A DNA stretch of 63,752 nucleotides from positions 1 through 63,752 of the forward strand of contig JADLBX010000010.1 of NCBI GenBank assembly GCA_020847435.1, written 5' to 3'. The notes beneath the pieces are model-generated. The model saw nothing but the letters and a program-made list of their open reading frames with translations, had not been told where the DNA came from and made no database searches. Position numbers and translations under genes: made by a program. Shown piece by piece: positions 19,713 through 59,667 of the stretch. The stretch is from Anaerolineales bacterium (GTDB taxonomy: Bacteria > Chloroflexota > Anaerolineae > Anaerolineales > Villigracilaceae). Positions within the stretch are counted from its first letter, which is position 1, and every line of letters starts with the position of its first letter.

Positions 19713-19784
19713 GCGGGTGTAGTTCAGTGGTAGAACGCTTGCTTCCCAAGCAAGATATCGTGGGTTCGAGTCCCATCACCCGCT
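19713..19784 (+). tRNA. tRNA-Gly, anticodon CCC
   Basis: A 72-base cloverleaf: acceptor GCGGGTG/CACCCGC, D-loop AGTGGTAGA, anticodon stem CTTGC/GCAAG with loop TTCCCAA (anticodon CCC, reading GGG), T-loop GTTCGAGTC and discriminator T. The CCA end is not encoded. It has its own consensus promoter and a downstream terminator, so it is probably a single-gene unit. Confidence 0.95.
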
Positions 19785-19792
19785 CACGCAGG

Positions 19793-19902: not shown

Positions 19903-20295
19903 ATGACACCGATCGCGAAAGGCACAATTTTATATGTGGAAGATAACCCCGATAACCGCATGCTCGTGCGGCGGGTGTTGCTTTCGGAGGATTATTCGTT
20001 GTTGGAAGCGACGAGCGCCGGGCAGGCAATGTCTGTCTTGGAATCGAACCGCCCGGATCTGATCTTGATGGATATCAACATGCCCGATATGGACGGGTAT
20101 ACCCTGACTTCACAGATCAAGTCCATGTCGGGTTTCGAGGGCATTCCGATCATTGCGATCACAGCCAATGTGATGCGCGGCGACCGCGAAAAAACTCTTC
20201 AGGCGGGTTGCGACGGGTACATACAAAAACCGATTGACATTGACCAGTTGACACGAGAGATCGAGAAGTTCCTGGCGAGGAGACACGATGCCTGA
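19903..20295 (+). CDS. Stand-alone response-regulator receiver protein 1
   Basis: This 130-residue CheY-like receiver has all key residues: acidic pair VEDN, phosphorylation site LILMDINMPDMDG, Thr switch in AITANVM and Lys in IQKPID. There is no output domain. It opens the 29-kb sensor cluster and overlaps the next gene by 8 bases. It resembles receivers such as DivK/CheY that signal by protein contact. The likely phosphodonor is the hybrid kinase at 41882-46519, the only kinase in the operon; that link is inferred. Confidence 0.9.
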   Translation: MTPIAKGTILYVEDNPDNRMLVRRVLLSEDYSLLEATSAGQAMSVLESNRPDLILMDINMPDMDGYTLTSQIKSMSGFEGIPIIAITANVMRGDREKTLQAGCDGYIQKPIDIDQLTREIEKFLARRHDA

Positions 20296-20731
20296 AAATG
20301 TTTTGGATACTCAACCGATTCGCAAGCCGACCATTCCCAAGGACGCGACCGTTCTGGTGGTGGAGGACAACGTCGCCAATTTTGTATTGATCGCGAGGAT
20401 GCTCGGTTATTTGGGAATCCACTGCGAGTGGAAGACCTCCGGGTATGAAGTGGTGGAATACGCGGATACGCTTTCGCGTTTGGATTTGATTCTGATGGAT
20501 ATCCGTTTGCCGTATGAGGACGGGTATGGCGCGCTAAAGAAGATCCGCGCCTCCGATAAGTTGCGCGCCATCCCCATCGTTGCCGTGACCGCCGAAGCCA
20601 GCACCGATCAAATGAACAAGGCGAAAGACTCGGGCTTCGACGGCTTCCTCGGCAAACCTTTAGACCCCGATAAATTCCCCGATCAGATCCGCCGCATCCT
20701 CAACGGTGAATCGGTATGGGAGTTCATTTAG
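20288..20731 (+). CDS. Stand-alone response-regulator receiver protein 2
   Basis: This 147-residue receiver has a short proline-containing N-terminal extension, acidic pair VEDN, phosphorylation site LILMDIRLPYEDG, switch AVTAEAS and Lys in LGKPLD. It has no output domain. It is translationally linked to receiver 1 (8-base overlap) and followed 13 bases later by the soluble GAF protein. Two single-domain receivers in tandem suggest a branched or phosphate-sink arrangement, which is inference. Confidence 0.9.
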   Translation: MPENVLDTQPIRKPTIPKDATVLVVEDNVANFVLIARMLGYLGIHCEWKTSGYEVVEYADTLSRLDLILMDIRLPYEDGYGALKKIRASDKLRAIPIVAVTAEASTDQMNKAKDSGFDGFLGKPLDPDKFPDQIRRILNGESVWEFI

Positions 20732-20744
20732 AAACCGCGATCCC

Positions 20745-22862
20745 ATGACTGAAAACAGCCTCGCAGGAACCGAGTTCTTGGTCACGGCATATTTCGTTGC
20801 CAATGCAGACCGCTTGCAACTCACGCACTATTCCGACTCACAGGAACGCGGGATGCAAACGGCGGCTTCACGCGTCTTTGAATTGCCGTTGCGCGAAGTA
20901 GAAGCCCACTTGAAGGAGGGCGTTTTGAGGGTGGATCAATCGAAACCCTCCACCCTGCCGACTTCGTTGGTCATGTTCCCGCGGCAAATGGGCTGTGACG
21001 CGGCGGCGTTCATACCGGTCCATTGGAACGGAGCCTTGACGGGAGCGCTGATGCTCGGCGCGCGCGGCGGACAAACTTTCAGCGACGAACTGATCGACGC
21101 GTTCCAACGCACGATTCGCTTCGCCGTTTCGATGGCAGAGAAGGCGACGCAACCGGCGCCGGCGGAGACCGACCGCCGCGTCCGTGAAGCGCGCGCGTTG
21201 AATTACCTCGCCTCAAGCGCCGCGACGATCAGCGACCTGAGATCGTTCTATGCTTCGATCCACGACCAGTTCCGCAGTGTGCTCGGCGACTTCAGTTTTG
21301 TGATCGCGCTGTACGACGAGGCTACAAATTCGATCAACATTCCATATCTATATGAAGAAGGTCGCTACTCTTCCCTTGAAACCTTCCCACTTGGCGAAGG
21401 CTTGACCTCGATCCTAATCCGCACGAAGGAGCCTCTGCTCATCGTTGAGGATACTGAAAAACGAACGACTGCCATGGGCGCAAAAGTTTCCGGCAGACCC
21501 CCGAAATCGTGGATGGGCGTTCCGCTGCTCGCGCGCGGCGAAGCCATCGGCGCGGTCATTATCCAGGATTTGGACAAGGAGCACGCCTTCAACGAGGACG
21601 ATCTACGCTTTGCAAGCGCCGTAGCCAACCAGATTTCCGGCTCACTGCACAACGTCCGGCTGTTACAGGGGAGTCAGCAACTTGCCCTGCAATTCGAAAC
21701 GGCGGCTGAGATCGCGCGCGACATCAGCAGTTCGCTTAATCTGGATGAGTTATTGCTCAAGGCTGTGGATTTGATCCGCTCAAGGTTTAACTTCTATCAC
21801 GCCGCGGTCTTGCTGAAAGACCTGCCCGGCGAATTTGTTGTCGTGCGCGAAGCCACCAGCGAAGCCGGGGCGCAGTTCAAACGGTCCGGCTACAAATTGG
21901 AAGTAGGCTCCAAATCCATTATCGGGTCGGTGGCTGAAAAAGGCGAAACGCTCGTGGCAAACGACGTCTCACGCGACCTGCTCTATATGCCTCACCCTGC
22001 TTTGCCGGACACGAAATCGGAGGCGGCGATCGCGCTCAAGCTCGGCGAGCGCATTCTCGGCGTGTTAGACGTTCAAAGCGAGCAGACATATGCCTTCTCG
22101 AACGACAACCTGCGCATCCTGCAAATTCTCGCGGACCAGCTCGCGATCGCAGTGATCAACACGGAACTCTTCGCGGAAACACAGGAACATCTGGCGCAAC
22201 ACCGCCTCCTCCACCACGTCACCACCACAGCCGCCTCCGGCACCACGCTGGATGAAGCGCTTCAATCCGCGGTCAACGGGTTACAGGTGACGTTAGGCGG
22301 AGACCGTGTCACCATCCTGCTCCTCGACCGCGAGAAAAAAGCCCTCGAGGTCAAAGCCGCGGTGGGCTATGCCGAGGAGATCTACCGGATCAAAGTGCCG
22401 CTCGGAGGCGGCGTCACCGGTTGGAGCGCGCTTCACCGCCGCCCTCTGCGAGTGAACAACGTGTCACAAGACCCGCGTTATATCGAAAGCAGTCCGAACA
22501 CAAAATCGGAACTGGCGCTCCCGTTGCTTTATCGCGGCGAACTGCTGGGGGTGTTGAATGTGGAAAGCGAGCAAGTCGCGGCGTATGCCGATAACGACGA
22601 GGAACTGCTTGGCACGCTGGGCGGCAGTCTCGCCGCGATCATCGCCAATGCGCGCCTGCTCGAGCAGATCCGTTCGCAAGCGGAACGCGAACGCGTGATC
22701 TTCGAGATCACCGACAAGATCCGCCGCACCACCGACATGCAGACCATCCTAGCCACGACAGCCAGCGAACTCACCCGCGTCGTCGGCGCGAGCGGGGCGC
22801 ATATCAAACTTGGCGCAAACCTAAAGCCCACATCTCAACCGTCGGGAGCGCGCGATGAATAG
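20745..22862 (+). CDS. Soluble multi-GAF sensor without output domain (sensor 1)
   Basis: About 705 residues with no membrane segment. A GAF-like N-terminal region (about residues 5-130) is followed by three clear GAF domains (about 150-315, 325-490 and 500-660), for example SEAAIALKLGERILGVLDVQSE and SELALPLLYRGELLGVLNVESE. It ends with the family tail RERVIFEITDKIRR...ILATTASELTRVVGAS, the first helix and strand of another GAF. There is no HisKA, HATPase, GGDEF, phosphatase or DNA-binding domain. GAF domains bind small molecules or serve as dimer interfaces; no chromophore Cys-His motif is seen. The start at MTENSL avoids overlap with receiver 2. It overlaps sensor 2 by 8 bases. Confidence 0.88.
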   Translation: MTENSLAGTEFLVTAYFVANADRLQLTHYSDSQERGMQTAASRVFELPLREVEAHLKEGVLRVDQSKPSTLPTSLVMFPRQMGCDAAAFIPVHWNGALTGALMLGARGGQTFSDELIDAFQRTIRFAVSMAEKATQPAPAETDRRVREARALNYLASSAATISDLRSFYASIHDQFRSVLGDFSFVIALYDEATNSINIPYLYEEGRYSSLETFPLGEGLTSILIRTKEPLLIVEDTEKRTTAMGAKVSGRPPKSWMGVPLLARGEAIGAVIIQDLDKEHAFNEDDLRFASAVANQISGSLHNVRLLQGSQQLALQFETAAEIARDISSSLNLDELLLKAVDLIRSRFNFYHAAVLLKDLPGEFVVVREATSEAGAQFKRSGYKLEVGSKSIIGSVAEKGETLVANDVSRDLLYMPHPALPDTKSEAAIALKLGERILGVLDVQSEQTYAFSNDNLRILQILADQLAIAVINTELFAETQEHLAQHRLLHHVTTTAASGTTLDEALQSAVNGLQVTLGGDRVTILLLDREKKALEVKAAVGYAEEIYRIKVPLGGGVTGWSALHRRPLRVNNVSQDPRYIESSPNTKSELALPLLYRGELLGVLNVESEQVAAYADNDEELLGTLGGSLAAIIANARLLEQIRSQAERERVIFEITDKIRRTTDMQTILATTASELTRVVGASGAHIKLGANLKPTSQPSGARDE

Positions 22863-24798
22863 GCTGTACTCGTTGTTGCGCACGCGCCAGACCAACGACG
22901 GCAAACAGTTCCTGTTTGCCCATGTCGCCGCGCAAGTCATTGCCTGGTTGGGCGCAATCCCCGGCGTACTCTCGATCTTATTCAACGCAGAGTTCGACGC
23001 GCCTCAGGCATTATCTCTGGCGCGCTTCGCCACAGTGACGTTCGTGATTTGTTTTGCCGCCACTCTCCTGTTCAGTTGGCTAATCACGCGCGTCGCCCGA
23101 AAAAGACTGGATGAAATTGCCGCAGGCTCCGCCAGACCCGATGCAAAAGCCGAACTCCTCGCCTGGCGCGAGATCACAAGATTTTCGGTGCGTTTCGGAA
23201 TCTCCTCGGCGGCGGTGTTCTTCGTATTCCTCGTCCTGCCTACCGTGACCATCGCCTCCATCCAAAGCGCCACGATCACCTCTCCGTTTCAACCCAATTC
23301 GCTTACCTCCCCCAATCCCCTCTATGTGTTAACCGGCGGAACTGCCGCCATCATGGGCTGGGTCATCCTCTGCATCCTATTGACCGAACGCTTCACGCGC
23401 CCATTACGGCTGACTCTCGTCCCCCCCGACTTTAACACCCAACGGGAAGGACGCGGCGGCGCGCTCGTCGTCAGCAAATTCCTCATCCTGACACTGGCGT
23501 TAATCGCGATCGGCATCCTGTTAATCGCCCCCATCGGCTACCAGCAAACAGTCCGCATCCTGTATACCGAAGTCAGTTCGCTCGATGTATTCCGCGACCT
23601 GCGGACTCAATCCATCCTGTTTAGCGCGCTGGCGCTGGTCCTCGGCATCGGCTATTCCTATCTCGTATCCAAGTCAATTTCCGATCCAGTCAAAGAACTG
23701 ATTGACACATTCAACAAAGTCGAACTCGGAAACCTCTCGGCGCGCGCGCCGATCAGCGCGACCGACGAACTGGGCATCGTCACCATGCACTTCAACCGCA
23801 CGATCGCCCGCCTGGAGATCCTCCAGAATACGCTCGAACATCAGGTAACCGAGCGCACGAAACTGCTCGAAGCCTCCATTGAAGTGGGACGCGTTGCCTC
23901 ATCGAGCCTTAACCCGGACGAACTCCTCGCGCGCGTGGTTAACTTATTCACCGATCAATTCGGCTATTATTTCGCCGCGATCTACCTGCTGGACCCCAGC
24001 GAGAAATGGGCAGAGATCCGCGCCGCCACCGGCGAGATCGGAGACCTGCTCAAACAGAACCGCCAGAAACACGAAGTCTCAAGCCGGAGCATGGTCGGTA
24101 GCGCCATCCGCGAAAAATCCGCCAGGATCGCCCAGATCGCACAACAAGAAACGAACCGCTTTCAAAATCCGTTGCTGCCCTACACCCGCTCGGAGATCGC
24201 CCTGCCCATCCTCGCAGGCGACAAAATTCTCGGAGCGCTCGACGTACAATCCACCAAGGAATCAGATTTCGGTCCCGACGCGATCCGCACAATGGAAAGC
24301 ATGGCTGGACACGTGGCGATCGCGCTCGAAAACGCCCGCTTGTTCCAAGAGGCACAACAAAGTATTCACGAAATGCGCGCCGCCCAACAACAATATCTCC
24401 TCACCGGCTGGAGCGCCCTCTCCAACCCGGCCGAAGAAACGGAATATGACGTCGGCGACGAACCCGAATTCAGCGCGCGACAGATCGAAATTCCCATTAG
24501 CTTGCGCGATCAAGTCCTGGGTCAGATCCGCCTCGATAATCCGGAAATCTGGACTCCGGAGCAGGAAAATCTGGTAAATGCTGTGGCGGCGCAAGCGGCA
24601 GTCGCCCTCGAAAACGCAAGATTGGTCAGCGAATCGCGGCAGACCGCCTTGCGTGAGCGGATGATCGCAGAGATCAACTCAAAGATTTGGTCGTCGGCGA
24701 CCATCGAAGGCATCCTGCAAACCGCCGCGAAGGAACTGGGCAGAAGGCTGGACGCCTCGCGCGCGACGATCGAATTGAATCTGGATGAGGTCAAGTAA
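22855..24798 (+). CDS. Membrane GAF sensor without output domain (sensor 2)
   Basis: This 647-residue protein has about five to six hydrophobic segments in the first 270 residues (for example AAVFFVFLVLPTVTIAS and FLILTLALIAIGILLIAPI). A HAMP domain follows (SDPVKELIDTFNKVELGNL, about 275-330), then a coiled coil, a full GAF (about 345-500, with PYTRSEIALPILAGDKILGA) and a reduced GAF (about 535-610, IPISLRDQVLGQIRLD). It ends in the shared tail RERMIAEINSKIW...LDASRATIELN. It has no catalytic output. The architecture suggests signals from the membrane pass through HAMP to GAF interfaces, which must then act on another protein. Confidence 0.88.
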   Translation: MNRLYSLLRTRQTNDGKQFLFAHVAAQVIAWLGAIPGVLSILFNAEFDAPQALSLARFATVTFVICFAATLLFSWLITRVARKRLDEIAAGSARPDAKAELLAWREITRFSVRFGISSAAVFFVFLVLPTVTIASIQSATITSPFQPNSLTSPNPLYVLTGGTAAIMGWVILCILLTERFTRPLRLTLVPPDFNTQREGRGGALVVSKFLILTLALIAIGILLIAPIGYQQTVRILYTEVSSLDVFRDLRTQSILFSALALVLGIGYSYLVSKSISDPVKELIDTFNKVELGNLSARAPISATDELGIVTMHFNRTIARLEILQNTLEHQVTERTKLLEASIEVGRVASSSLNPDELLARVVNLFTDQFGYYFAAIYLLDPSEKWAEIRAATGEIGDLLKQNRQKHEVSSRSMVGSAIREKSARIAQIAQQETNRFQNPLLPYTRSEIALPILAGDKILGALDVQSTKESDFGPDAIRTMESMAGHVAIALENARLFQEAQQSIHEMRAAQQQYLLTGWSALSNPAEETEYDVGDEPEFSARQIEIPISLRDQVLGQIRLDNPEIWTPEQENLVNAVAAQAAVALENARLVSESRQTALRERMIAEINSKIWSSATIEGILQTAAKELGRRLDASRATIELNLDEVK

Positions 24799-24802
24799 GT
24801 TT

Positions 24803-26674
24803 ATGGATACCAACCGCTATCCACCGCTCCGATTCAGACTGGCTCTCGTTTGGATTTTGCTTGCGATCCTGTTCGTCGCAGGTATCTCAATCGCGCTGTA
24901 TCTCAACTTCAGGGCAGAACTGTATAACAGCCTCCGTCACCGCCTCGAAAACATCACCACGCTGGCGGCGTTACAACAGGATGGCGACGCGTTCTCCAAA
25001 GTGGAAGCGGAAGGCGACCCATACTTCAATCAAATTCAGGCGCAAAACCTGAAGATCAGAAGGTCCGATCCTGAACTGCGGTTCGTCTACACCATGCGGC
25101 GCGACACCGAGGGAATCTACTTTGTGGTTGACGGCGGCCTCCCAAGCGAAGAGGGCTACTCACCCTTTGGCATGAGGTATTTCGAGCCGGGACCGGCGCT
25201 CGAGGAAAACTTTGACCGCATGTCCGGGACCCTCCTCGAACCCGATTTCTATACCGACGAATACGGAACCTTCCTCTCCGGGTATGCCCCTATCCTAAAC
25301 TCACGCGGGCAACAAGTCGGCGTCATCGGCGTGGACATCACCGCCAATACCATCCTCGCACAAGAGCGCGCGTATCTCGTCCAGATCGCTACAATTGATC
25401 TCATTGCGCTTCTCCTGATCGTGATCGCCGGCTTTCTTGCCGCAAATTACCTTGCCAAACCGATCGTCCACTTGCGCGACGCCGCCAACCGCATCAGCCA
25501 GGGCGAATTCTCCCATCGCATCACGGAGATTCCGAGCGCACGCGAACTAGCGGAACTGGCTGTGGACTTCAACACAATGACCGCCAACCTCAGCGGGTTG
25601 ATCACCGATCTCGAACTCCGCGTGGCAGAGCGCACGGAAGACCTGACGCGCAAATCCGATCAACTCCGGTCAGCGTCCTACATCGCCCGTCAAAGCGCTG
25701 AAGTGCAAGACCTGCACGCCTTGATCAACACGGTGGTAAATCTCGTTACGGACCAGTTTGGGTACTATCATACCGGCATCTATTTGATCAACGAAGCAGG
25801 CGCTGAGGTCTCTCTAATGGCGGCGTCCTCCGATGGCGGAAAGCGGATGATCGAAAAGGGACACGCGCATAAAATCGGCGCGCAGGGAATCGTCGGATCC
25901 GTCGCGGCGGAGAAAAAGAGCCGCGTCACGCTCGACGGGGATGCGGGCGCCGCCGCCTTCAACAACCCCGACCTCCCACAAACCCGTTCAGCAATCGCCC
26001 TCCCGCTTCTGGCGCGCGGACGACTCCTCGGCGTGTTGGATATTCAATCGAATAAACCCAATGATTTCACCCCGCAGGACATGGATGTGTTCCAAACGCT
26101 TGCCGACCAAGTTGCGGTCGCCATCGAAAAGGCTCAACTGCTCGACGCCTCGCAAGCGGCATTCAGCCAGCTCGAAGCGTTGACGACCGTCCGCACGCGT
26201 GAATCGTGGGCGCAAAAATTGAAGGAAAAAGAACGGGTGGTTACTTATACGCCGCTAGGACTGCGCGCGGAAAAGATCTCCAAAATAGAACCCAACGCCC
26301 TCACCGTTCCGATCGTCCTCAGGGGTATTCAAATCGGAACGATCTCGATGGCGCGTAAAGGCAATGCGGGTTGGAGCAAACAAGACGAGGATACGATCCG
26401 CGAGGTCGCCACGCAAACCGGGCTGGCGGTAGACAATATCCGCTTGCTGGAGGAAGCAACCGAGCGCGCGCGGCAGGAACAAACCGTAGGCGAACTCGCG
26501 TTCCGGTTTAGCCAGGCATTGGATATGGACTCATTGCTCCAGACCGCCGCTCGCGAACTGGGACAACTCCCCGGCATCGAGGAAACCACCGTCTTCATCG
26601 GTCAGCCTGGCGAGGCGGAAGATCAGGTGGGAACAGGCGGCAGGCAAAAGTCCGCGAGGAGAAACGGCTCATGA
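24803..26674 (+). CDS. Membrane GAF sensor with extracellular sensing domain (sensor 3)
   Basis: About 623 residues from MDTNRYPPLRF. TM1 (about 11-33) and TM2 (about 198-218) enclose an extracytoplasmic PAS/Cache-like domain of about 165 residues (TDEYGTFLSGYAPILNSRG, QVGVIGVDITANTI). HAMP (KPIVHLRDAANRISQGEFSH), a coiled coil, a full GAF (PQTRSAIALPLLARGRLLGV) and a reduced GAF with Trp (ESWAQKLKE) follow. It ends with the shared tail MDSLLQTAARELGQLPGIEE. It has no output domain. I take the second in-frame ATG because the first lies inside sensor 2. It overlaps sensor 4 by 4 bases. Confidence 0.87.
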   Translation: MDTNRYPPLRFRLALVWILLAILFVAGISIALYLNFRAELYNSLRHRLENITTLAALQQDGDAFSKVEAEGDPYFNQIQAQNLKIRRSDPELRFVYTMRRDTEGIYFVVDGGLPSEEGYSPFGMRYFEPGPALEENFDRMSGTLLEPDFYTDEYGTFLSGYAPILNSRGQQVGVIGVDITANTILAQERAYLVQIATIDLIALLLIVIAGFLAANYLAKPIVHLRDAANRISQGEFSHRITEIPSARELAELAVDFNTMTANLSGLITDLELRVAERTEDLTRKSDQLRSASYIARQSAEVQDLHALINTVVNLVTDQFGYYHTGIYLINEAGAEVSLMAASSDGGKRMIEKGHAHKIGAQGIVGSVAAEKKSRVTLDGDAGAAAFNNPDLPQTRSAIALPLLARGRLLGVLDIQSNKPNDFTPQDMDVFQTLADQVAVAIEKAQLLDASQAAFSQLEALTTVRTRESWAQKLKEKERVVTYTPLGLRAEKISKIEPNALTVPIVLRGIQIGTISMARKGNAGWSKQDEDTIREVATQTGLAVDNIRLLEEATERARQEQTVGELAFRFSQALDMDSLLQTAARELGQLPGIEETTVFIGQPGEAEDQVGTGGRQKSARRNGS

Positions 26675-28860
26675 TCCTCACGCGCAAATTGATCGCTCCT
26701 GCCGCGATCTTATTCACTGTGTTTCTCGCTGTGCTGTTCGCTTATTTCTTCAACAGCCTGCATCAGGTTTACCATGAAGCGGAAGAGCGCGACCTCGCGA
26801 CCTTCAGCAACGCCTTTTCGGTTGAGATCGAAAACCAAAAAAATCTCGCCTTGTCGCTGGCGGTCACTGCGGCAGATAACCCGGCGATCCAGCAGGCGTT
26901 TGCCGAGCGCGAGCGTGAACGCTTGAGCGAGTTGGCATTACCGGGCTACTCCATGCTGGTAGACGCCGGAGCGAATATCTCGCAAAGCCGCTACTATCTC
27001 GCGGATGGAAGTTTGTTCTTCAGCGCAAGCCCGGAGGCAGGCGCTTCAGCGATTGCCAGCCCGGCCGTCCTGCTTGTCCTTTCTGAACAACAAGCGCTCG
27101 CGGGCTTGGAAATTCAGGGCGGCGCGCTGGCGATCCGCGGCATTTCCCCGGCGTTTTACGAAAACCGCTTCATCGGCGCGGTCGAATACGAGATCAAACT
27201 TAACGCGGCGGCGCTGGAAGCGATGCAGAAAAAGTATGGCGCAGACTGGCGCATCCTGATTCTCAAAGACCTGACGTCAAGCGACGCGGCGCTGGAGCCG
27301 GGACCGGTCGAGAATTTGCTGGTGGTCACACGCACAAAGAATGCGATCATCTCGAACGACGCAGATAGCTACCGCCGCGCCCTGCTGGGCGAATCGGTTA
27401 TCACCCATCCCAGCCAGGACGGCCGCGATTACGCCCTTCAAACTTCGCCCATCTACGATTATTCGGGTAAAACCATCGGCGCGCTCGACATTGTGTACGA
27501 CCACACACACATCTCAGTCGCACAAAATAGACGCCTGATCTTCGCCGGGTTGGCAAGCGCGGCAGCGCTGATCCTCGGACTCATCGGTTTATTTCTGCTC
27601 ATGAGCCGGACGCTCCAGCCGATCCAGACGCTCACCAACGCCGCCTCCGCAATCTCAACCGGGAAAGCCTTGCCGCATATCAACCTCAAGCCGGAGAACG
27701 ACGAGATCGGGATCCTGGTTTCAGCCTTCAACCGGATGACCGCTCAATTGAACGCCTCGATCTCAAACCTGGAAGAACGCGTATCCGAGCGCACGCGCGA
27801 ACTGGAGGAGCAATCTCTGCGCCTGCGGGTGGCGGCTGAAATTTCCCAAAATTCTGTCGCCATGCGTCGGCTGGATATGGTATTGGAAAGTTCGGCGCGG
27901 TTGATCCTCGATCGCTTTAATTATTATCACGTCGGCATTTTCCTGGTGGACAAGGAAAATAAACTCGCGGCGCTGGCGGCATCGCCCACCGAGGCGGGGC
28001 GCCAAATGTTGGACGCTGGATTCCAAATTCAGATCGGGGAACCGACTCCCTTGGGTCGTGCGGCGGCAAGCGGCGAACCGCGCGTTCTCTCCGGTAACGC
28101 GAGCGAAGTGTCTGTCGTCAAAAACGAACTCCTGCCCGCCTCCCGTTCGGAGTTGGTCCTGCCGCTCAAGGTCGAAGATCGGGTGATCGGCATCCTGGAC
28201 ATCCACAGCGTACACGACCAGGCATTTAAACCCGAAGAAGTTTCGGTCATGCTGGTGCTGGCTGACCAACTCGCCAGCGCCATCGAACGCACGCGCCTGC
28301 TCGAAGAATCGACGTTCACGCTCAACGAACTGGAACGCGCCTACGGTCAATTCACACGAACCGGGTGGCAAAGATATGCCGCCAGTGGCAGGGCGCGCAA
28401 CGTCGGTTATCGCTTCAACAACATCCGCATCGAACCGGTTGCCAGCCCGCCGCCGGCAGGGAAGGAAGCGCTGACCACAGGCGCCCCAGTCATCCCCGTC
28501 GGTAATGACGCGGGCCGCGAGGCGGCGCTTCCGCTGAAATTCCGCGGTCAAACGATCGGCGTCGTCCATGCAAAATTGCGCGAGGGGCAGAGCGACAGCG
28601 CGCTTGCCACTCTGCAACAGGCGGTTGATCGTCTGGCTTCCGCGTTGGAAAGCGCGCGCTTGTACGAAGAGGCGCGGATCAGGGCGGACCGCGAACAAGC
28701 GATTTCGCAGATCACAAGCGCGATCAGTTTATCCAGCGATTACGAGAGTATCTTACGCACGACCATTCGCGAGATCGGACATGCGCTGCCGGACACCGAG
28801 GTCGGCATCCAAATCATTGACGATTCAAATCAGGCTTCGCTTGCCGAGGGAAGGGATTAA
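26671..28860 (+). CDS. Membrane GAF sensor with double-Cache-like domain (sensor 4)
   Basis: This 729-residue protein has TM1 (about 9-30) and an extracytoplasmic region to about 285 that resembles a double Cache domain (GALAIRGISPAFYENRFIGA, YALQTSPIYDYSGKTIGALD), then TM2 (about 288-312). HAMP (LQPIQTLTNAASAISTGK), a coiled coil, a GAF (about 390-545; PASRSELVLPLKVEDRVIGI), a Trp linker (RTGWQRYAASG), a reduced GAF (ALPLKFRGQTIGVV) and the shared tail (REQAISQITSAIS) follow. Cache domains usually bind small extracellular metabolites. It has no output domain. The stop lies 1 base before the sensor 5 start. Confidence 0.88.
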   Translation: MILTRKLIAPAAILFTVFLAVLFAYFFNSLHQVYHEAEERDLATFSNAFSVEIENQKNLALSLAVTAADNPAIQQAFAERERERLSELALPGYSMLVDAGANISQSRYYLADGSLFFSASPEAGASAIASPAVLLVLSEQQALAGLEIQGGALAIRGISPAFYENRFIGAVEYEIKLNAAALEAMQKKYGADWRILILKDLTSSDAALEPGPVENLLVVTRTKNAIISNDADSYRRALLGESVITHPSQDGRDYALQTSPIYDYSGKTIGALDIVYDHTHISVAQNRRLIFAGLASAAALILGLIGLFLLMSRTLQPIQTLTNAASAISTGKALPHINLKPENDEIGILVSAFNRMTAQLNASISNLEERVSERTRELEEQSLRLRVAAEISQNSVAMRRLDMVLESSARLILDRFNYYHVGIFLVDKENKLAALAASPTEAGRQMLDAGFQIQIGEPTPLGRAAASGEPRVLSGNASEVSVVKNELLPASRSELVLPLKVEDRVIGILDIHSVHDQAFKPEEVSVMLVLADQLASAIERTRLLEESTFTLNELERAYGQFTRTGWQRYAASGRARNVGYRFNNIRIEPVASPPPAGKEALTTGAPVIPVGNDAGREAALPLKFRGQTIGVVHAKLREGQSDSALATLQQAVDRLASALESARLYEEARIRADREQAISQITSAISLSSDYESILRTTIREIGHALPDTEVGIQIIDDSNQASLAEGRD

Positions 28861-28861
28861 G

Positions 28862-30568: not shown

Positions 30569-30577
30569 GCAATCGTC

Positions 30578-32299: not shown

Positions 32300-32306
32300 G
32301 ACCACG

Positions 32307-38262: not shown

Positions 38263-38289
38263 ACCGGGCATCCCGGTCAAAGAGAAACC

Positions 38290-41118: not shown

Positions 41119-41130
41119 GGCAGAGCAACT

Positions 41131-41916: not shown

Positions 41917-44900
41917 CAAGTTATTCCAGAATATCACGCCGGAAGATACTTCCTCGAAACCTGCGCGCAAAGCGCCGCTCGAGGAAGCGCTTATCGTTCC
42001 GCCTCCCGTCGCGCCGGAACAGGTCCGCACCGTTTCCCCCCCAACGCGCCCGGTGGAGTTGATCCAACGCGCCCCAGCCAGCACGCGGACGATCTCCATG
42101 CCGTTTCAGGCGGGACAAAATAATTGGGCGACCTTGCAAGTGCTGGACGACAAGCCAGAAACACAATGGACCCCGGACGATGAACTGCTCGTCCGCCAGG
42201 TGGTGGACCAACTTTCGCTGGCGCTCGAGAACGCACGGTTATTTCAAGAGACCGAGTTGCGCGCGAAAGAAATGTCCGTCTTGAACGAAATGGGACAGGC
42301 GCTCGCCGCTACGTTGAACATCGAACAGATCATCGAGATCACCTACGCCGGCATCTCGCGCCTGTTCGATACCAGGAATTTCTACATCGCGTTCTACGAT
42401 CAGCCGAAAAACGAGATCGTATTTCCACGCAACGTGTCCGATTCGATCGCGGACCGCTCCATCACGCGCATCCCCATGGGCACAGGCATCACCACGCACA
42501 TCATCCGCGCGCGCGAGAGCGTCCTCATCACAGATGGAAGCGATAACTGGATGCGGCAACGCGGCGAGACTCCCGTCGGCGAACCGGCGCAGTCCTTCCT
42601 GGGTGTGCCGCTGGTAGCCAGCGATACGGTCCTGGGCGCCATCGCCATTCAGGATTACACCACGCCGAAAAAATACGATGAACACGACCTGCGATTGCTC
42701 ACCTCCTTTGCCAGTCAGGCGGCGATCGCCATCGAGAATGCGCGTTTGTTCGAAGAAGCCCAACGCCGCGCCCAGGAAACCTCCGCGTTGGCTGAGGTCG
42801 GGCGCGAAATTTCATCGTCACTCCAGTTGGAGACCGTTCTCGAAAAGATCGCGTCGTACGCGTTCGATCTCCTGCAAGCCACAACCAGCGCGGCATACCT
42901 GCCGATCGAACAGGGCGAAAAATGGCGCGCCGTCGCCGCAGTAGGCTCCGAGGCAAAAGAACTCCAGGGCGACCTCGTCATTCGCGGCCGGGGTATTCTT
43001 GGGAATGCGATTCTTCAGGCAAGCGGCGCCATCTTCAACAACGCGGAAAATATCTCCGAAGGAGTGCTGGTACAAGGCACAGAACCCGTGCCGGCATTTG
43101 AGCACCTGATGGCGGTGCCCGTGCTTTCCAACGAGCGGGCGACAGGGTTGCTGGCAGTCTGGCGCGAAGGCGAAGGACGTGAGTTCAAGCCAACCGAACT
43201 GGATTTCTTAACCAGCCTCTCGCGACAGACCGCGATCGCCATTGCAAACGCGCAACTCTTTCAGGAAGCGACCTCCAGCCAGGCAACGCTCTCCGAGGCG
43301 TTACGCATCGCCCGGATCGGTTATTTCGAGGTGGACGCGGCGACCCAGACCATCAGCATTACCGACGAATTGCTTGCAATCCTCGACACAACCGCCGAAA
43401 AAGAAGGGGGACGACAACTCCCTGCGCGCAGAGTGCTAAGAAAATTTGTCCACCCAGACGATTACAAATCGGCGATTGCCGCGTATATCAAAGCGTTCAA
43501 ATCCGGTAACACCGGGCAGGAAGTCGCCGTCGAAACGCGCTACCGCCTCCGCGACGGCAGGACGATCTGGGTCAACACAACCTACAAGGCAGAACTCGAC
43601 GAGAAAGGCCGGGTGTATAAGGTCGCCGGTTCGTCGCAGGATATTACCGACCGCAAAACGAACGAGTTAGTCCAAACCGCCATTACACAGATCTCAGACG
43701 CCACATTAACCGCCGCAAGCATCGAAGAACTTATCCGGGCGATCCACGCGGCGATCGGCAAACTAGTCCCTGCAAAAAATTTCTACATTGCCCTCTACGA
43801 TACGCAAGCGGATTGGATGACTTTCCCCTATTACGAGGACGAACACGATCAACCCATGCCGCCGCAAAAACTCGGGCGCGGATTGACCAGTTACGTCATC
43901 CGCACTGGACGGGCGTTACGGACCACACCGGAACTTTACGCAGAATTGGTGGCTTCCGGCGAAGTCGTTGGCGGAGGCACAACCAGCGTAGATTGGCTTG
44001 GCATCCCGCTCCGCAGTGAAACGGCGGTCCGCGGCGTCATGGCAGTGCAGTCCTACAACAGCGCGGAACGGATCACAAAACAACATCAGGATATTCTGTC
44101 CATTCTCGGCACACAAGTTGCCGCCGCCATCGAGCGGTTGCTTTCACGACAGGCGCTGGCAAAATCTGAAGCCGATCTACGCGCCCTGTTTTCGTCCATG
44201 CAGGATGTGGTGCTGGTCGTGGACCAGGATACGCGCTACGTCCGCATCGCGCCCACCAACCCTTCGCGTCTCTTCCGCCCGCCGGAAGAATTGCTTGGCA
44301 AACGCATGGACGAACTGTTGCCGCCTGAAACGCACGAGCCGATCCGCGCCGCGATTCATAAGGCTCTTGAATCGAACGAGTCCGTTCAAATCGAATACCG
44401 TTTACCGATCGAAGATCAGGAATATTGGTTTCTCGCCAACATTTCACGCCTGAACAAAAACGAAGTTTTTTGGGTTGCCCGCGATATCACCGAGCGCAAA
44501 CGGTCTGAGGAAGCCCTCCAACGGCGCAATAAATACCTCGCCATTTCAGCCGAGATCGGGAAACTGGTCACCTCGACCCTTGACCTGAACCGGATCTTCA
44601 CCGAGACCGTGAACAGCGTGAAGGATGGGTTTGAATTAAATTTCGCCTCAATTTACAACATCGAAGAGACGGGTTTTAATGCCATGCTCCGCGGGGCGAC
44701 CGGCGAAGCGGGCGAACAATTGATCGCCGAAAAACATTCCGTCGCAGTCGGCTCGCAATCCATCGTCGGGTTGGTGGCAGAATCGGGAACCGCCAGATTG
44801 ATCGAAGACGTGGACAGCGAACCTCTCTACCAGCCCCATCCGCTCCTCACCAGGACTCGCTCTGAAGTCGCGATTCCCTTGCGTATCGGGCAGAGGATCA

Positions 44901-46519
44901 TCGCCGTTCTCGACCTGCACTCGGATCGCGCCAGCGCCTTCACCGAGGACGACATCTCCGTCCTGCAATTGTTGAGCGATCAGGTGGCGGTGGCGATCGA
45001 TAACGCCCGCTCCTACGAACTCTCGCAACAGTTGATCAAGGATTTGCGCGAGGTGGACAAACTCAAAAGCCAGTTCCTCGCGAACATGAGCCACGAACTA
45101 CGCACGCCGCTGAACTCCATTATCGGCTTCTCACGCGTGATCCTGAAAGGGATTGACGGTCCCATCACCGACATGCAGCAACAGGACTTGACCGCGATCT
45201 ACAACTCCGGTCAACACCTGCTGGGCTTGATCAACGACGTGCTCGACCTCGCCCGCATCGAAGCGGGGAAGATGGAACTCAACTTCGAGGAAGTCAACCT
45301 CGCGGATATGATCCAGAGCGTATTATCCACGGCAAAAGGCTTGGTGAAGGAAAAGCCCATCCAACTGGTTTCCAACATCGCGGCGGGAACCCCCACCGTG
45401 CGCGGCGATACCATGCGCGTAAGACAAGTCTTCATCAACCTGCTCTCAAACGCCTCAAAATTCACAGACGAAGGCGCGATCAAGGTTGAAGCCCAAAACC
45501 AAAAAGACGCGGACGGCAAAACCGAAGTCTTGATCCGCGTCACCGATACCGGACCCGGCATCTCGATCGAAGATCAGGAAAAACTCTTCAAAGCCTTCTC
45601 GCAGGTGGACGGCTCTGCCACGCGCAAAAGCGGCGGGACCGGCTTGGGGCTTTCCATTTGCGCCAACCTCGTGCAACTGCACGGCGGGCGCATCGGCGTT
45701 GAAAGCGAACCGGGCAAAGGTTCGACATTCTGGTTCACACTTCAACCCTATCACCAACAACTGGATGAAATTCCAGCGGACCGCAAAGTGGTCATCGCCA
45801 TTGACGACGACCCCAAGGTTGTCAGCCTGTACGAACGCTATCTCACCCCACAGGGATATTACGTCATTCCGTTCATCGACGCGAAAGGCGCAAAGGAACG
45901 GATCATCGCCATCAAGCCCCACGCCATTACCCTCGACGTGATGATGCCCAACGTTGACGGCTGGACGCTTCTTTCCGACTTGAAGTCTGACCCCGCCACC
46001 CGCGACATCCCGGTCATCGTCTGCTCAATCCTCGAACAGGCGGACAAAGGCTTCAACCTCGGCGCGGCAGACTATTTGACCAAGCCGATTCTGGAAGAAG
46101 ACCTTGTCCAAGCCATGCAGCGACTTGATAAAAAAGGACAGATCCGCAACATCCTTGTCATTGACGACAGCCCGGACGACCGCCGCCTGATCGAAAAGAT
46201 CCTCGGCGCAAATGGGAAGTATGAGGTCGTCTCGGCAGACGGTGGACGGCAAGGCTGGGAGGCGATCAAAGCCAACCCGCCTCAGGCGGTGATCCTCGAC
46301 CTGTTCATGCCTGATTGGGACGGATTCGCAGTGCTGGAAAAACTTCGCGAAGACCCGGTCTTGCGCGATCTGCCGGTGCTCGTCGTCAGCGGCGGAGGGT
46401 TGACGGAGGAACAATCAAAGCAACTGCAAGATTTCGGGAAACGCCTGCTCTTGAAAGGATCGTTCAAGGAAGGCGAACTGATTACCAGTATCGAACACGC
46501 ACTGGACCTGTTAGGCTAA
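41882..46519 (+). CDS. Soluble hybrid histidine kinase, GAF/PAS/HK/REC/REC
   Basis: 1545 residues, no membrane helix. Order: basic N-terminus with KKK, a proline-rich linker, a C-terminal half-GAF (about 70-122), GAF (130-292), GAF (300-463), PAS (475-590), GAF (595-752), PAS (762-872), GAF (885-1050), HisKA with phospho-His at [12 protein letters not shown] (His1081), HATPase (about 1185-1292; [14 protein letters not shown]), REC1 (1302-1415, Asp1352, Lys1401) and REC2 (1422-1543, Asp1473). It is the only kinase in the 29-kb operon and starts with the reduced-GAF module seen near the end of each sensor. That suggests it pairs with the sensors and is their common output. REC2 resembles the receiver fused to the next gene's enzyme. 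Confidence 0.92.
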
Positions 46520-46564
46520 ACTATGCGAGCAATTCATATCCCCAAGTAGAGGTTCGGTTTACGA

Positions 46565-48241
46565 ATGTTATTTGTCATTCGATGTCTTGACTGCGGGCAC
46601 GCCGCGCCGTTCATGCCGCGCTCCATGCACTGCCCCAACTGCAACAGCCAATGGCGCGAAGCGGAATACAATCTCGAAGAAGTTGCGAAAACGTTTCCCG
46701 CCGCGCTTAAAGATCGCTCATTCGACCTGTGGCGCTACCGCGAATTACTTCCGATACACTCGCCCAACCCAACCCTGCGCTTGGGCGAGGGCGGCACACC
46801 GCTTATTAAAGCCGCCAACCTCGGCAACATGCTTGGCTTGCCGAACTTGTACATCAAAGACGAGCGGCAGGGACCAACCTCCTCCTTCAAGGATCGGCAG
46901 GCGGCAGTCACGATTGCCGCGCTGAAGGAAGGCGGCGTGACCGAGATGGTCGCGGCTTCGACCGGCAACGTCGCTATCGCGCTATCCGCGTACGCGGCGC
47001 GGGCGGGGATCAAACTGTGGGCGTTCGTCACCAGCCTCGTTCCCGGGGTAAAGATGCGTGAGATCGCACTCTACGGCAGCCAGGTGGTGAAGATCACCGG
47101 TTCGTACGACCAGGCGAAACAAGTCGCGGCGGAGTTTGCGCGTCAACGCGGCTTATATCAGGACATGGGCGCGCGGACGGTCACTGCGGTGGAGGCGATG
47201 AAGACCATCGCTTTTGAGATTGCGGAACAACTGACCATGGAGGCTGGCGCGCCCGGATCAATGACCGGAGGCGCGTCTAAATGGAGGACGCCCGACTGGT
47301 ACGTCCAAGCGGTCAGCGGCGGGATGGGTCCGCTCGGCGTCTACAAAGGCTTTCGTGAATTAAAACAACTCGGGCTGATCGACCGCATCCCGGCGCTCGT
47401 GCCGATCCAGGCGGAAGGTTGTGCGCCAATGGTGGACGGCTGGAAAAGAGGGCTTGAAAAAGCGGAGCCCGTCCTTTCACCGAACACGCGTATCGAAACT
47501 CTCGCCACCGGGGATCCCGGTCGGACGTATACCATGCTCCGCAGGCAAGTGATCGAAACGAACGGCGTCTTCGAAAGCGTGACCGACGACGATGCCTTCC
47601 GCGCCATGCACGTGCTGGCAAAGCTTGAGGGTATTTCCGCCGAACCTGCGGCGGGCGCGGCGTTTGCCGGGTTGTTCAAACTCGTCCGCAACGGGGTCAT
47701 TAATTCGACGGATACGGTCGTCGTCAATTGCACCGGTCATACCCTCCCGGCGGAACAATTCCTCTTCGACGATAACTGGACGCGTGACGTGGATTACCCC
47801 CGGGTAATGGCGCAATCCGAAACGCCACAGGAGGGATTGCTCGCCGCGCTCAACAACGTGACGCCGAACCGCTTCCCGCGCGTGGCAGTGGTGGATGACA
47901 GCCCCGAAGCGCGCCGCCTGATCCGTCGCATTCTGCAATCACAGGGTGATTTCGAAATTTCCGAAGCGGCAGACGGGCGCGAAGCCATCGAACTCGTCAC
48001 ACGCGAACGACCCGATATCGTCATCCTCGACCTGATGATGCCGGAGGTGGACGGGTTCGCGGTGCTGGATGCCCTGCGCGGCAAACCAGAAACAGCAAAC
48101 ATCCCGGTCATCGTTGCCACCGCCAAGGAATTAACGGTCAACGAAAAGAGCCGGTTACAGGGCCAGATCCAATCGCTGATGCAAAAGGGCGACTTTTTGA
48201 ACGATGATTTCCTCGACGAAGTCCGTTCGCTGATCCGCTAA
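46565..48241 (+). CDS. Threonine synthase fused to a C-terminal receiver domain
   Basis: 558 residues. A zinc-ribbon start (CLDCG, residues 7-11; CPNC, 23-26) precedes a PLP-dependent fold-type II domain with the Schiff-base Lys109 in SSFKDRQAA, ASTGNVAIALSAYAARAG and a late CTGHTLP phosphate site. These match threonine synthase, which converts O-phosphohomoserine to threonine. Residues about 437-556 form a receiver: VVDDSPEARRLI, Asp489 in VILDLMMPEVDG and Lys541 in MQKGDF. The frame is continuous, so the fusion is genuine as sequenced. I know of no established enzyme of this family with a receiver. Phosphorylation by the neighbouring kinase could control activity or location; this is inference. 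Confidence 0.9.
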   Translation: MLFVIRCLDCGHAAPFMPRSMHCPNCNSQWREAEYNLEEVAKTFPAALKDRSFDLWRYRELLPIHSPNPTLRLGEGGTPLIKAANLGNMLGLPNLYIKDERQGPTSSFKDRQAAVTIAALKEGGVTEMVAASTGNVAIALSAYAARAGIKLWAFVTSLVPGVKMREIALYGSQVVKITGSYDQAKQVAAEFARQRGLYQDMGARTVTAVEAMKTIAFEIAEQLTMEAGAPGSMTGGASKWRTPDWYVQAVSGGMGPLGVYKGFRELKQLGLIDRIPALVPIQAEGCAPMVDGWKRGLEKAEPVLSPNTRIETLATGDPGRTYTMLRRQVIETNGVFESVTDDDAFRAMHVLAKLEGISAEPAAGAAFAGLFKLVRNGVINSTDTVVVNCTGHTLPAEQFLFDDNWTRDVDYPRVMAQSETPQEGLLAALNNVTPNRFPRVAVVDDSPEARRLIRRILQSQGDFEISEAADGREAIELVTRERPDIVILDLMMPEVDGFAVLDALRGKPETANIPVIVATAKELTVNEKSRLQGQIQSLMQKGDFLNDDFLDEVRSLIR

Positions 48242-49257
48242 TGGATAAAAGCAAGGAAACCCCCGCCAGCGTCAACGAGGTGACCTATCCGTCGTTGAAG
48301 TTAAAAACCCAACTGCTCAAAAAAATGAAACTGCGCGGGATCAATGCCGCGCTACTCTCAGCCATGTTCCTCGGCATGGCGCCCGTATTTGGCAAAGCTG
48401 CCATGGGTGCGGAGCGTTTCTCGCCGCTCGCGGTCGTTGCCATCCGCACCAGCCTCGCCGCGCTTTTGCTCGTCTTATTCTTTGCTGTCGTCAACCGGCG
48501 GGCGTTATACATCTATCCTGCGGCGTTGTACATGACCATGTTCGCCGGCGCGATCAACGGCATTGGCTCGATCTTTTACTACATTGGTTTAAGCAAATTG
48601 AATGCGAGCGTCGCGCAGTTGTTATATTCGCTCTATCCGTTCTTCGTCGCCTTTTGGCTGCAACTGGACCGTCAGCCGCCCTCCCGCTTGACGCTTGTCA
48701 GAATCGGTCTGGCAATTTTTTCCGTTTATTTTCTGACGCGAGGGACAACCGGCGCCATTGACCCGCTCGGCGCCATCTTCATGCTCGTCGCCGCCGCGCT
48801 CTACGCTTTGCACCTGCCCATTAACCAACGCGCCCTTTACGATGTGCCGCCGCCGACAGTGACGGTGTATACCCTGCTTGCCATGAGCGCCATCGTTGTG
48901 CCGGCTTATTTTATTTTCGACGGAAGCGCACCCGGTCCTTCGGCAAACTGGGCGCCGGTCCTGCTGTTGACCGGCGTGACGTTTTTCTCGCGCCTGACGC
49001 TCTTCTTCGGCGTCAAACACATCGGCGGGATGCAGACGGCTCTGCTCGGGCTGGCGGAATTGATCGTCGCCATTGTGTTGAGTCACCTGTTGTTGGGCGA
49101 TAATTTCACATGGCTTCAATGGATTGGCATCGTTGGCTTGGGATTCAGCCTGTTGCTCGTTTGGTTTGAAAAGCCGCCCTCGAATATGCCGCCGACGCAC
49201 GGTTTACTCGGCTGGCTCCAACCGCCGGATTTCCCTAAGGATTTCTTCAAGCATTAA
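48241..49257 (+). CDS. EamA/DMT-family transporter
   Basis: This 338-residue protein has ten predicted membrane helices in two five-helix halves (AALLSAMFLGMAPVFGKAAM in the first, GMQTALLGLAELIVAIVLSH in the second), typical of drug/metabolite exporters. A polar, Lys-rich N-terminus of about 30 residues precedes helix 1. Its ATG shares one base with the stop of the threonine synthase fusion, so translation is coupled. DMT proteins often export amino acids (RhtA exports threonine and homoserine). Export of threonine or a related compound is therefore a reasonable but unproven guess. Confidence 0.87.
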   Translation: MDKSKETPASVNEVTYPSLKLKTQLLKKMKLRGINAALLSAMFLGMAPVFGKAAMGAERFSPLAVVAIRTSLAALLLVLFFAVVNRRALYIYPAALYMTMFAGAINGIGSIFYYIGLSKLNASVAQLLYSLYPFFVAFWLQLDRQPPSRLTLVRIGLAIFSVYFLTRGTTGAIDPLGAIFMLVAAALYALHLPINQRALYDVPPPTVTVYTLLAMSAIVVPAYFIFDGSAPGPSANWAPVLLLTGVTFFSRLTLFFGVKHIGGMQTALLGLAELIVAIVLSHLLLGDNFTWLQWIGIVGLGFSLLLVWFEKPPSNMPPTHGLLGWLQPPDFPKDFFKH

Positions 49258-59621: not shown

Positions 59622-59667
59622 CAATCTCATGAACTCAACCAAACGATCATTCCATGGGAGATAAACA

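Follow-up and report, generated by a model that had tools for sequence, protein, structure and literature searches.

We identified in an Anaerolineales bacterium a conserved row of genes that probably encodes a many-receptor, one-kinase apparatus positioned by a ParA-type ATPase, with receptors and kinase docked via split GAF domains. The row lies on contig JADLBX010000010.1 of a draft genome (GCA_020847435.1, 88.6% complete), in a stretch of 63,752 nt that is called the window here. Gene calls and Pfam searches confirmed the gene set and order between 19903 and 49257 (Table 1). A sequence-only reading made earlier had described ten tandem GAF sensors between 20745 and 41118 with overlaps or gaps of at most 27 bases, preceded by two bare receivers and followed by ParA, a hybrid kinase, a receiver-enzyme fusion, and a transporter. 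Gene calls agree on the sensors, whose junctions range from a 14-base overlap to a 27-base gap, and gene calls and Pfam agree on the flanks. The ParA and kinase genes overlap by 35 bases. The sole kinase of the row is of the HisKA type (HisKA plus HATPase_c). Pfam found no STAS, CheA, or RsbT-like kinase among the row's proteins, no CheW among the 16 proteins, and no MCPsignal in the ten sensors (E ≤ 0.01).

Table 1 Features of the sensor row, with positions in the window
Feature	Position	Strand	Description
tRNA-Gly(CCC)	19713..19785	+	Directly upstream of the array; still adjoins ParA in L077, which lacks the array
Bare receiver (REC) protein 1	19903..20295	+	Gene call, Pfam
Bare receiver (REC) protein 2	20288..20731	+	Gene call, Pfam
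S1	20745..22862	+	Soluble; three GAFs and C-terminal half-GAF stub
S2	22855..24798	+	6 hydrophobic segments, HAMP, GAF, tail
S3	24785..26674	+	2 hydrophobic segments, HAMP, GAF, tail
S4	26671..28860	+	dCache_3, HAMP, GAF, tail
S5	28862..30568	+	6 hydrophobic segments, GAF, tail; start set at ATG 28862 (longest ORF begins inside S4)
S6	30578..32299	+	5 hydrophobic segments, GAF, tail
S7	32286..34001	+	5 hydrophobic segments, GAF, tail; GTG start
S8	33998..36526	+	dCache_1, HAMP, GAF, tail
S9	36523..38262	+	5 hydrophobic segments, GAF, tail
S10	38290..41118	+	8 hydrophobic segments, Cache-type domain (MCP-like_PDC_1), HAMP, GAF, tail
Constant tail, S10 example	40534..41115	+	Helix with near-invariant Trp, compact GAF-like unit, ~58 residues matching first part of GAF
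Orphan ParA-type ATPase	41131..41916	+	Pfam; deviant Walker A KGGVAKTT
Soluble hybrid histidine kinase	41882..46519	+	GAFs, PAS, HisKA, HATPase_c, two receivers (Pfam)
N-terminal basic peptide of kinase	41882..41941	+	KRLDKLF core; proposed ParA-activating peptide
Kinase linker	41942..42067	+	Predicted disordered, pLDDT about 34
Kinase N-terminal half-GAF	42074..42307	+	Beta-hairpin and long helix; last part of GAF model only
Threonine-synthase-like PALP enzyme fused to receiver	46565..48241	+	Pfam
EamA transporter	48241..49257	+	Pfam

The N-terminus is the variable part of the ten sensors, with 2, 3, 5, 6, or 8 hydrophobic segments and dCache_1, dCache_3, HAMP, or nothing named. No HisKA, HATPase, GGDEF, phosphatase, MCP signaling, or DNA-binding output domain exceeded its cut-off in any of the ten (Pfam, E ≤ 0.01), as the earlier reading had claimed. 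That reading took the GAF domains for the variable sensors, which the identities contradict, the GAF being more conserved than the tail (mean identity 0.43 versus 0.32 inside the window and 0.50 versus 0.33 across genera). Of the ten sensors that it counted, S1 keeps only the tail's final half-GAF, so the full tail is a property of nine proteins and not ten. These nine carry the only full tails in the draft genome (E ≤ 1e-49), the next best hit being a partial match in S1 (1e-22). Because full tails are confined to these nine and the arrangement recurs in relatives, it is not a product of chance. A weak hit to SpoVT_C in S1 scores 19.8 bits, where the cut-off is 27.5.

Sensors end, and the kinase begins, in complementary parts of the same fold. 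AlphaFold predicts two helices and no sheet at the sensor end and, for the tail, a compact GAF-like unit with a very long helix; the nearest folds to the tail are single and tandem GAF domains. Across 31 array loci (our own and 30 relatives, chosen by strong tail hits) there are 256 GAF-plus-tail sensors, 4–12 per locus. Cut at the stub itself, all 256 sensor ends match just the opening part of the GAF model; 72-residue pieces put 82 of the 256 in the model's second half because they took in the preceding GAF helix. The sensors were picked by a tail profile that itself includes the stub. The proteins after ParA, 30 of 31 of which are the kinase, begin with the other part: their whole N-termini match just its closing part (31/31). 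For the kinase start, AlphaFold predicts a short helix, disorder, and then hairpin and helix, from an alignment of 17 sequences only. Sequence and models together suggest that the half-GAF ends offer a concrete way for sensor and kinase to dock.

Among complete GAF ORFs of the fetched loci that have neither kinase nor receiver, 418 of 430 likewise end in the stub, a count that is not an independent background because nearly all loci behind it are arrays or type-B loci; several of the other 12 are cut, frame-broken, or carry long C-terminal extensions. Further half-GAF control sets held S1-type and type-B proteins and array kinases, and were left out as background. At L164, the one other locus fetched from our own genome, both GAF proteins have conventional output domains at their ends: a kinase in one and, judging by its sequence, a phosphatase-like domain in the other.

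A shared apparatus could be built without split-GAF docking if coiled coil and compact GAF-like unit let the tails pair in a lattice that the stub only caps, and the kinase joined by its own GAF coiled coil. The predicted tail and its nearest folds suit such a lattice, as does the homology of the kinase hairpin-helix to the tail's own hairpin-helix (42077–42403 matches the tail profile at 1.8e-16). We nonetheless regard it as unlikely, since it leaves unexplained the complementary break points, with sensors stopping and post-ParA proteins starting within the same fold in every case counted above.

Concerted evolution of the tails, which would have pointed to co-adaptation to one kinase, was considered and rejected. 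In a set with one locus per genus (103 of the 256 sensors, 13 of the 31 loci), tail identity is the same within loci as between them (0.331 versus 0.335). Only 4% of tails have their nearest neighbor in their own locus and the rest match other loci, as would be expected of old orthologous lineages.

Gene content around the sensors is strongly conserved. Exactly one kinase lies between the first tail sensor and EamA in 31/31 array loci, and ParA, as well as a PALP-receiver followed by EamA, is present in all 31; a strong hit to the tail was what qualified a locus for this set. In a wider set of 101 relatives, the tail (E ≤ 1e-25) occurs in 67 of 70 genomes with this ParA versus 5 of 31 without, counts that ignore phylogeny; the sequence-only reading had proposed co-occurrence in relatives as a check, and the counts bear it out. 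In the same relatives the figures are 70/70 versus 9/31 at 1e-20 and 60 versus 3 at 1e-40. The type-A PALP-receiver is found in 69/70 ParA genomes versus 7/31 others, and shares a contig with ParA, 2.7–9.2 kb apart, in 61/70. Tail sensors also follow ParA class at the named loci, accompanying the closest ParA in 22/24 cases, the intermediate in 8/19, and ordinary ParA in 0/37. One carrier is a named strain, Anaerolinea thermolimosa IMO-1 (locus L087).

Relatives also contain sensor-kinase fusions (L196, L198, L199, L200, L206, L207, and L216). The half-GAF is absent from the old sensor/kinase junction in the fused proteins, and they therefore show coupling of sensor and kinase rather than a split-GAF fit. 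Evidence against a common apparatus, according to the earlier reading, would be relatives with a kinase for each sensor or sensor loss that spares kinase and ParA. No locus with a separate kinase for each sensor occurs among the loci read, but parts of the row do separate: G032 keeps kinase, PALP-receiver, and transporter, with sensors and ParA not found, and L077 keeps an intact ParA open frame in a genome without the tail, a close kinase, or the PALP-receiver. Because of these two cases ParA is not strictly tied to the kinase. The proposal of many inputs served by a single kinase is otherwise strengthened by the constant kinase number, by the ParA and PALP-receiver that travel with the sensors, and by the fusions.

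It could be argued that the sensors never touch the kinase, the locus being a genomic cluster of regulators acting via other proteins while the kinase responds to inputs at GAF and PAS domains of its own. It does contain such domains, four or five GAF and two PAS, and in G032 it persists without sensors. However, the presence of exactly one kinase beside kinase-less sensors in 31 array loci, the existence of fusions, and the complementary half-domains make this reading very unlikely. We take the kinase to be soluble because its one marginal hydrophobic segment (aa 238–256) sits within a GAF domain (145–285).

The best PDB matches of the ParA are ParA/Soj chains, and its Walker A motif is invariant across 21 aligned orthologues. 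No ParB lies beside it, and the only ParB_N match of the draft genome sits on contig C51. In the loci read, the gene after ParA usually opens with a basic peptide and linker, whatever its type. The gene with this peptide is a sensor in L097, L099, and L216, another kinase-less GAF protein in L085, G041, and also L101 (cut by a contig end), and CheW in L105, L108, L109, and L110. In L106 ParA is partnered by a LytR-CpsA-Psr protein. By profile, the peptide fails to stand out in L104, L107, L108, L198, and L217; the background of the peptide test includes type-B kinases and the post-ParA kinases of L070, L095, and L202, which the rule for picking the next gene missed. At L098 that rule picked a wrong ORF. 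Neither the half-GAF ends nor a peptide resembling that of ParA partners appeared in the sequence-only reading. The N-terminus of our own ParB, MAKRTGLGKGLDALI, resembles the kinase start, a likeness by eye only, because ParB N-termini do not score with the peptide profile.

Type-B loci complicate the link between peptide and ATPase. The type-B companion locus of our own genome (contig C35) has a sensor, kinase, and PALP-receiver without ParA. Split type-B kinases carry the peptide in 10/10 cases by eye with no adjacent ParA (L163, L185–L191, L193, and L194), a count outside which the L192 kinase falls as it was not called; L200 is cut at its start. The peptide is absent from the soluble kinases of L195 and L197, which have other N-terminal domains and lie beside a PALP-receiver, and from the fused L196 and L199. 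The idea that the peptide serves ParA accounts for the type-B kinases only in part. That ParA has some other job, chromosome-linked or regulatory for example, and the peptide another use would suit these kinases, the ParA left in L077, the L106 partner, and the profile's failure to match ParB, but seems most improbable given that such a peptide follows ParA on unrelated partners, CheW included, and that in the 101 relatives full tails are seldom missing where this ParA occurs.

We therefore return to the ParA-positioned apparatus with split-GAF docking. Ten receptors that differ in their N-termini (membrane bundles, Cache domains, or soluble GAFs) and have GAF and tail in common would feed one soluble hybrid kinase. 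The receptor end would supply the opening portion of a GAF, with two helices and the first strand, and the kinase, past its flexible linker, the closing portion, with hairpin and long helix. Contact between them would rebuild a GAF-like unit, and the receptor's signaling helix would run on into the kinase. Phosphoryl groups may then pass from the kinase to the receivers in its own chain, to that of the threonine-synthase-like enzyme, giving a putative metabolic output, and perhaps to the two bare receivers. ParA would be stimulated by the basic peptide at the kinase N-terminus and might spread or segregate the assembly across the nucleoid, much as orphan ParAs such as PpfA do with their cargo.

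In MCP arrays, many receptors with a constant signaling end share a common kinase. The row, too, appears to encode a sensory array, but of a type that differs from the one known in chemotaxis. It resembles the ParA-positioned chemosensory arrays of Rhodobacter sphaeroides (PpfA/TlpT) and Vibrio (ParC/ParP), where a ParA-like protein positions the array. It differs in lacking an MCP signaling domain, CheA, or CheW, and in having a HisKA hybrid kinase, GAF-based receptor ends, and an enzyme-receiver as apparent output. Several paralogous inputs also feed one kinase in the stressosome (RsbR paralogues, RsbS, and RsbT), as described in the accessible part of its literature. RsbR paralogues have a common C-terminal part and differ in the N-terminal part. 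Unlike the stressosome, the row has no STAS domain and no RsbT-like kinase was found in it, its inputs are mostly membrane proteins, and ParA is present. As in the hybrid histidine kinases of two-component systems, HisKA, HATPase_c, and receivers lie in one chain, but the membrane inputs are separate genes, with ten GAF proteins per kinase. Among the top-ranked results of a literature search, whose reach into subscription journals was poor, no published description of such a system appeared. Tentatively, and with some doubt, we raise the possibility of a further type of machine beside chemoreceptor arrays and stressosomes, in which membrane receptors and a soluble hybrid kinase, each bearing part of a GAF, signal by rebuilding it in trans, the kinase also serves as the ParA partner through which the whole assembly is partitioned along the nucleoid, and a metabolic enzyme is driven directly by the phosphoryl group.

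If the proposed apparatus is real, evolution in Chloroflexota built another modular sensory array, with the same kind of tie to ParA, that uses GAF domains with a HisKA kinase instead of MCP, CheA, and CheW. How many receptors share one histidine kinase becomes a question that can be tested on soluble fragments of short length, namely sensor tail, kinase N-terminus, ParA, and PALP-receiver, and the split domain suggests a route by which receptors and kinases become separate genes. A receiver on a threonine-synthase-like enzyme would, in that case, link a two-component system directly to a biosynthetic enzyme, a connection that to our knowledge is rare. The PALP domain itself passes in Pfam; the curated threonine synthase cut-offs are not reached (261 bits versus 303 for PRK08197, thrC, and 151.8 versus 167.1 for TIGR00260).

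Partners of ParA/MinD ATPases such as ParB/Spo0J, PomX, and McdB have a positively charged N-terminal peptide, and PomX also an Ala/Pro-rich stretch, according to the part of the source available to us (PMC7993993). The row would resemble ParA/MinD ATPases with short-peptide activators, in that a ParA-type ATPase is paired with a partner predicted to bear a basic N-terminal peptide and linker. It differs from the known activator systems in that the partner is a sensor kinase. As a separate observation, L098 has an overlooked ORF that begins MSDDRLTGFIDDVFSGL and includes a proline-rich stretch; it stood outside the peptide scoring.

Gene calls and Pfam searches upheld the gene order described in the sequence-only reading: two bare receivers, ten GAF proteins, ParA, one hybrid kinase, a PALP enzyme fused to a receiver (PALP-receiver), and an EamA transporter. 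That reading had also found no output domains in the GAF proteins, and 0/10 carry one over the Pfam cut-off. The surrounding draft genome comprises 3.05 Mb and is 88.6% complete. The N-termini of the ten proteins contain 2, 3, 5, 6, 8 or zero hydrophobic segments and bear dCache_1 or dCache_3, HAMP, or no named domain. Nine share a GAF with a tail of ~160–200 residues; the first, S1, carries just the tail’s end. GAF and tail are thus the constant part, so the earlier picture of GAFs as varied sensors should be reversed, with the N-termini as the part that differs. Within its own genome the full tail is confined to these nine proteins (E ≤ 1e-49), the next-best match being the partial one in S1 (1e-22).

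Thirty relatives were picked for strong tail matches and ~40 kb around each was examined, giving 31 loci with our own. In these loci, selected by tail matches, the sensors bearing both GAF and full tail number 256 (4–12 per locus), and all the loci contain ParA (31/31) and PALP-receiver followed by EamA (31/31). The stretch from the first tail sensor to EamA includes exactly one kinase in 31/31 loci, so the earlier suggestion of many inputs sharing a single kinase gains support; their assembly into a complex is proposed. No concerted evolution of the tails was found, which counts against this reading.

Because the 31 loci had been picked by tail matches, the count was extended to all 101 genomes, scored for this ParA at E ≤ 1e-70; here, as in the 31 loci, each was counted singly regardless of kinship. 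On that basis, tails were detected in 70/70 genomes with ParA versus 9/31 without at E ≤ 1e-20, 67/70 versus 5/31 at E ≤ 1e-25, and 60/70 versus 3/31 at E ≤ 1e-40; the PALP-receiver of ParA-bearing arrays (type A) occurred in 69/70 versus 7/31, and in 61/70 it shared a contig with ParA at a distance of 2.7–9.2 kb. Among the matches listed, relatives of the window’s ParA include Anaerolineales MAGs, of which one is assigned to Candidatus Villigracilaceae, and Anaerolinea thermolimosa IMO-1. In a scan of named genomes using the best 80 of 579 ParA matches, tail sensors accompany 22 of the 24 closest ParAs (L069–L091 and L135; at least 297 bits against the ParA of the window), 8/19 intermediate ones (L092–L110; mixed layouts, several short contigs) and 0/37 ordinary ParAs (L111–L134, L136–L148). 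At L097 ParA stands behind two receivers and a kinase with HAMP and ahead of the sensors, indicating that array parts stay together despite changed order.

The two loci of the closest 24 that lack tail sensors are L086, whose contig starts 113 bases ahead of ParA, and L077. The latter counts against the shared-array reading: it retains an intact ParA frame followed by GidA-type and HflX-type genes; its neighbour genes also flank the window’s array, with the downstream GidA/HflX block inverted. Sensors, kinase, PALP-receiver and transporter were all absent from the 20 kb examined, and the L077 genome contained no tail at E ≤ 1e-20, no PALP-receiver and no close kinase (best match 193 bits, HisKA-HATPase only). 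Genome G032 also counts against it, retaining kinase, PALP-receiver and transporter, and sensors and ParA were not found there; inspected by eye, that kinase may keep a remnant of the peptide and shows no linker of the array-kinase kind. Two genomes scored without ParA have broken contigs: ParA is cut by a contig end in G036 (L202), and the contig begins inside the kinase in G045 (L203). In G004 (88% complete) the tails score strongly and ParA gave no match. The closest kinase match in the L085 genome sits several genes past ParA, on the contig of the array.

A helix with a near-invariant tryptophan opens the tail; a compact GAF-like unit comes next, then a long helix and, at the end, a further segment. 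When compared with a 180-position GAF model made from window sequences, this end segment maps solely to the first part (median positions 2–49) in 256/256 sensors, which had been selected by a tail profile of which it forms part. The next protein after ParA is the kinase in 30/31 loci; in G041 a 1082-aa kinase-less GAF protein appears to intervene. This post-ParA protein opens with a short basic peptide, followed by a linker (median 19% proline) and a partial-GAF segment mapping solely to the last part of the model (median 115–177) in 31/31 loci, with first-half matches above 5 bits in 0/31. The sensor tail end and the kinase start may join into one GAF. The AlphaFold model of S10 GAF and tail (mean pLDDT 92.8) ends in two terminal helices with no strand beyond them, and by fold this piece lies closest to GAF domains, both single and tandem. 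The model of kinase residues 1–300 (17 sequences, mean pLDDT 76.6) has a short helix at 8–14, disorder at 18–62, then a hairpin and long helix ahead of the first full GAF. We favour, with moderate confidence, a shared ParA-linked apparatus with docking through this split GAF; most of the remaining weight falls to a shared apparatus that docks by other means.

The following loci concern natural fusions and REARRANGEMENTS. The genome has a second, simpler locus on contig C35 (type B) with one sensor and a kinase whose N-terminal peptide, KRVEKLFSDI, is of the same kind as the array kinase’s. In related loci a single kinase goes with one to several sensors. Receptor and kinase form a single chain in L196, L199 and L200, and likewise in L198, there with an adjacent ParA; membrane receptor-kinase fusions also occur in L206, L207 and L216, and the L206 and L207 genomes have no ParA at E ≤ 1e-70. 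The fused type-B proteins examined have complete units at the junction, and the half-GAF stub was not seen in them. A further PALP (threonine-synthase-like) gene follows the C35 locus.

As to the ParA link of the favoured split-GAF apparatus, the window’s ParA is an orphan, since the sole ParB_N match of the draft genome sits on contig C51. The basic peptide goes with the position after ParA and not with the kinase itself. Reading by eye places it on a sensor in L097, L099 and L216, on another kinase-less GAF protein in L085, G041 and L101 (cut by the contig end), on a PAS protein in L096, and on a CheW protein in L105, L108, L109 (with an MCP just upstream) and L110; in L091, one sensor and ParA precede a 413-aa peptide-bearing protein without a kinase domain. 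A peptide profile trained on 29 family N-termini was scored on a background of 1214 ORFs, whose 99th percentile is 4.15 bits. Background fractions were 0.2% for L216, 0.4% for L101, 0.7% for L109, 1.1% for L106, 1.2% for L096, 1.6% for L097, 3.7% for L105, 4.5% for L110, 5.7% for L099 and 24% for L108; L198 (18%), L104, L107 and L217 were not distinct from this background, and the L098 score was taken on the wrong ORF. ParB neighbours of ordinary ParAs did not match the profile, so the peptide resembles the N-termini of ParB on visual comparison only. The L106 LytR-CpsA-Psr protein hints at cell-envelope cargo for a related ParA.

In an excerpt of PMC7993993, ParA/MinD ATPase activators are described as a positively charged N-terminal stretch grafted onto an interaction domain, and TlpT and McdB are grouped with ParB, MinE, ParG and PomX. 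Excerpts of two further papers describe ParP as a ParC-binding N-terminus, long proline-rich linker and CheW-like domain (PMC5706961), and PpfA homologues without ParB in the che operons of 77/206 species (PMC2829493). With the peptide after ParA, the design of published activators and an orphan ParA, the kinase is built like a ParA partner and is a candidate for that role.

Threonine synthase is the closest match of the PALP part, which nevertheless falls under the curated cut-offs (261 of 303 bits, 151.8 of 167.1 bits), and the genome has ten PALP matches, including two PALP-receiver proteins. Three receivers, the one on this protein and the two of the kinase, exceed the Response_reg cut-off. 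Gene order and co-occurrence suggest that the kinase may phosphorylate the PALP-protein receiver. Solitary array-like PALP-receiver genes occur at L210 and L219, with no other array parts recognised in 20 kb around each. An Asp/Glu racemase-family gene directly after EamA, together with PALP and EamA, hints at amino-acid metabolism as output. A kinase-kinase-receiver block similar to the window’s directly follows EamA in many of the 30 relatives, there on the opposite strand.

Locations of features in the window and in related loci
Feature	Locus	Positions	Remark
Asp/Glu racemase-family gene	window	49350-50174	
Two histidine kinases and a receiver-Trans_reg_C regulator	window	55396-60402	downstream of array
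Second locus	L163 (own contig C35)	4615-10526	HAMP-GAF membrane sensor, soluble kinase, second-type PALP-receiver; ParA absent
Array-less region	L077	8661-16897	of the array only ParA remains, after polyprenyl synthetase and tRNA-Gly
Post-ParA LytR-CpsA-Psr protein	L106	10801-12456	peptide-like N-terminus, by eye
Solitary PALP-receiver gene	L210	10293-11957	
Solitary PALP-receiver gene	L219	9599-11407
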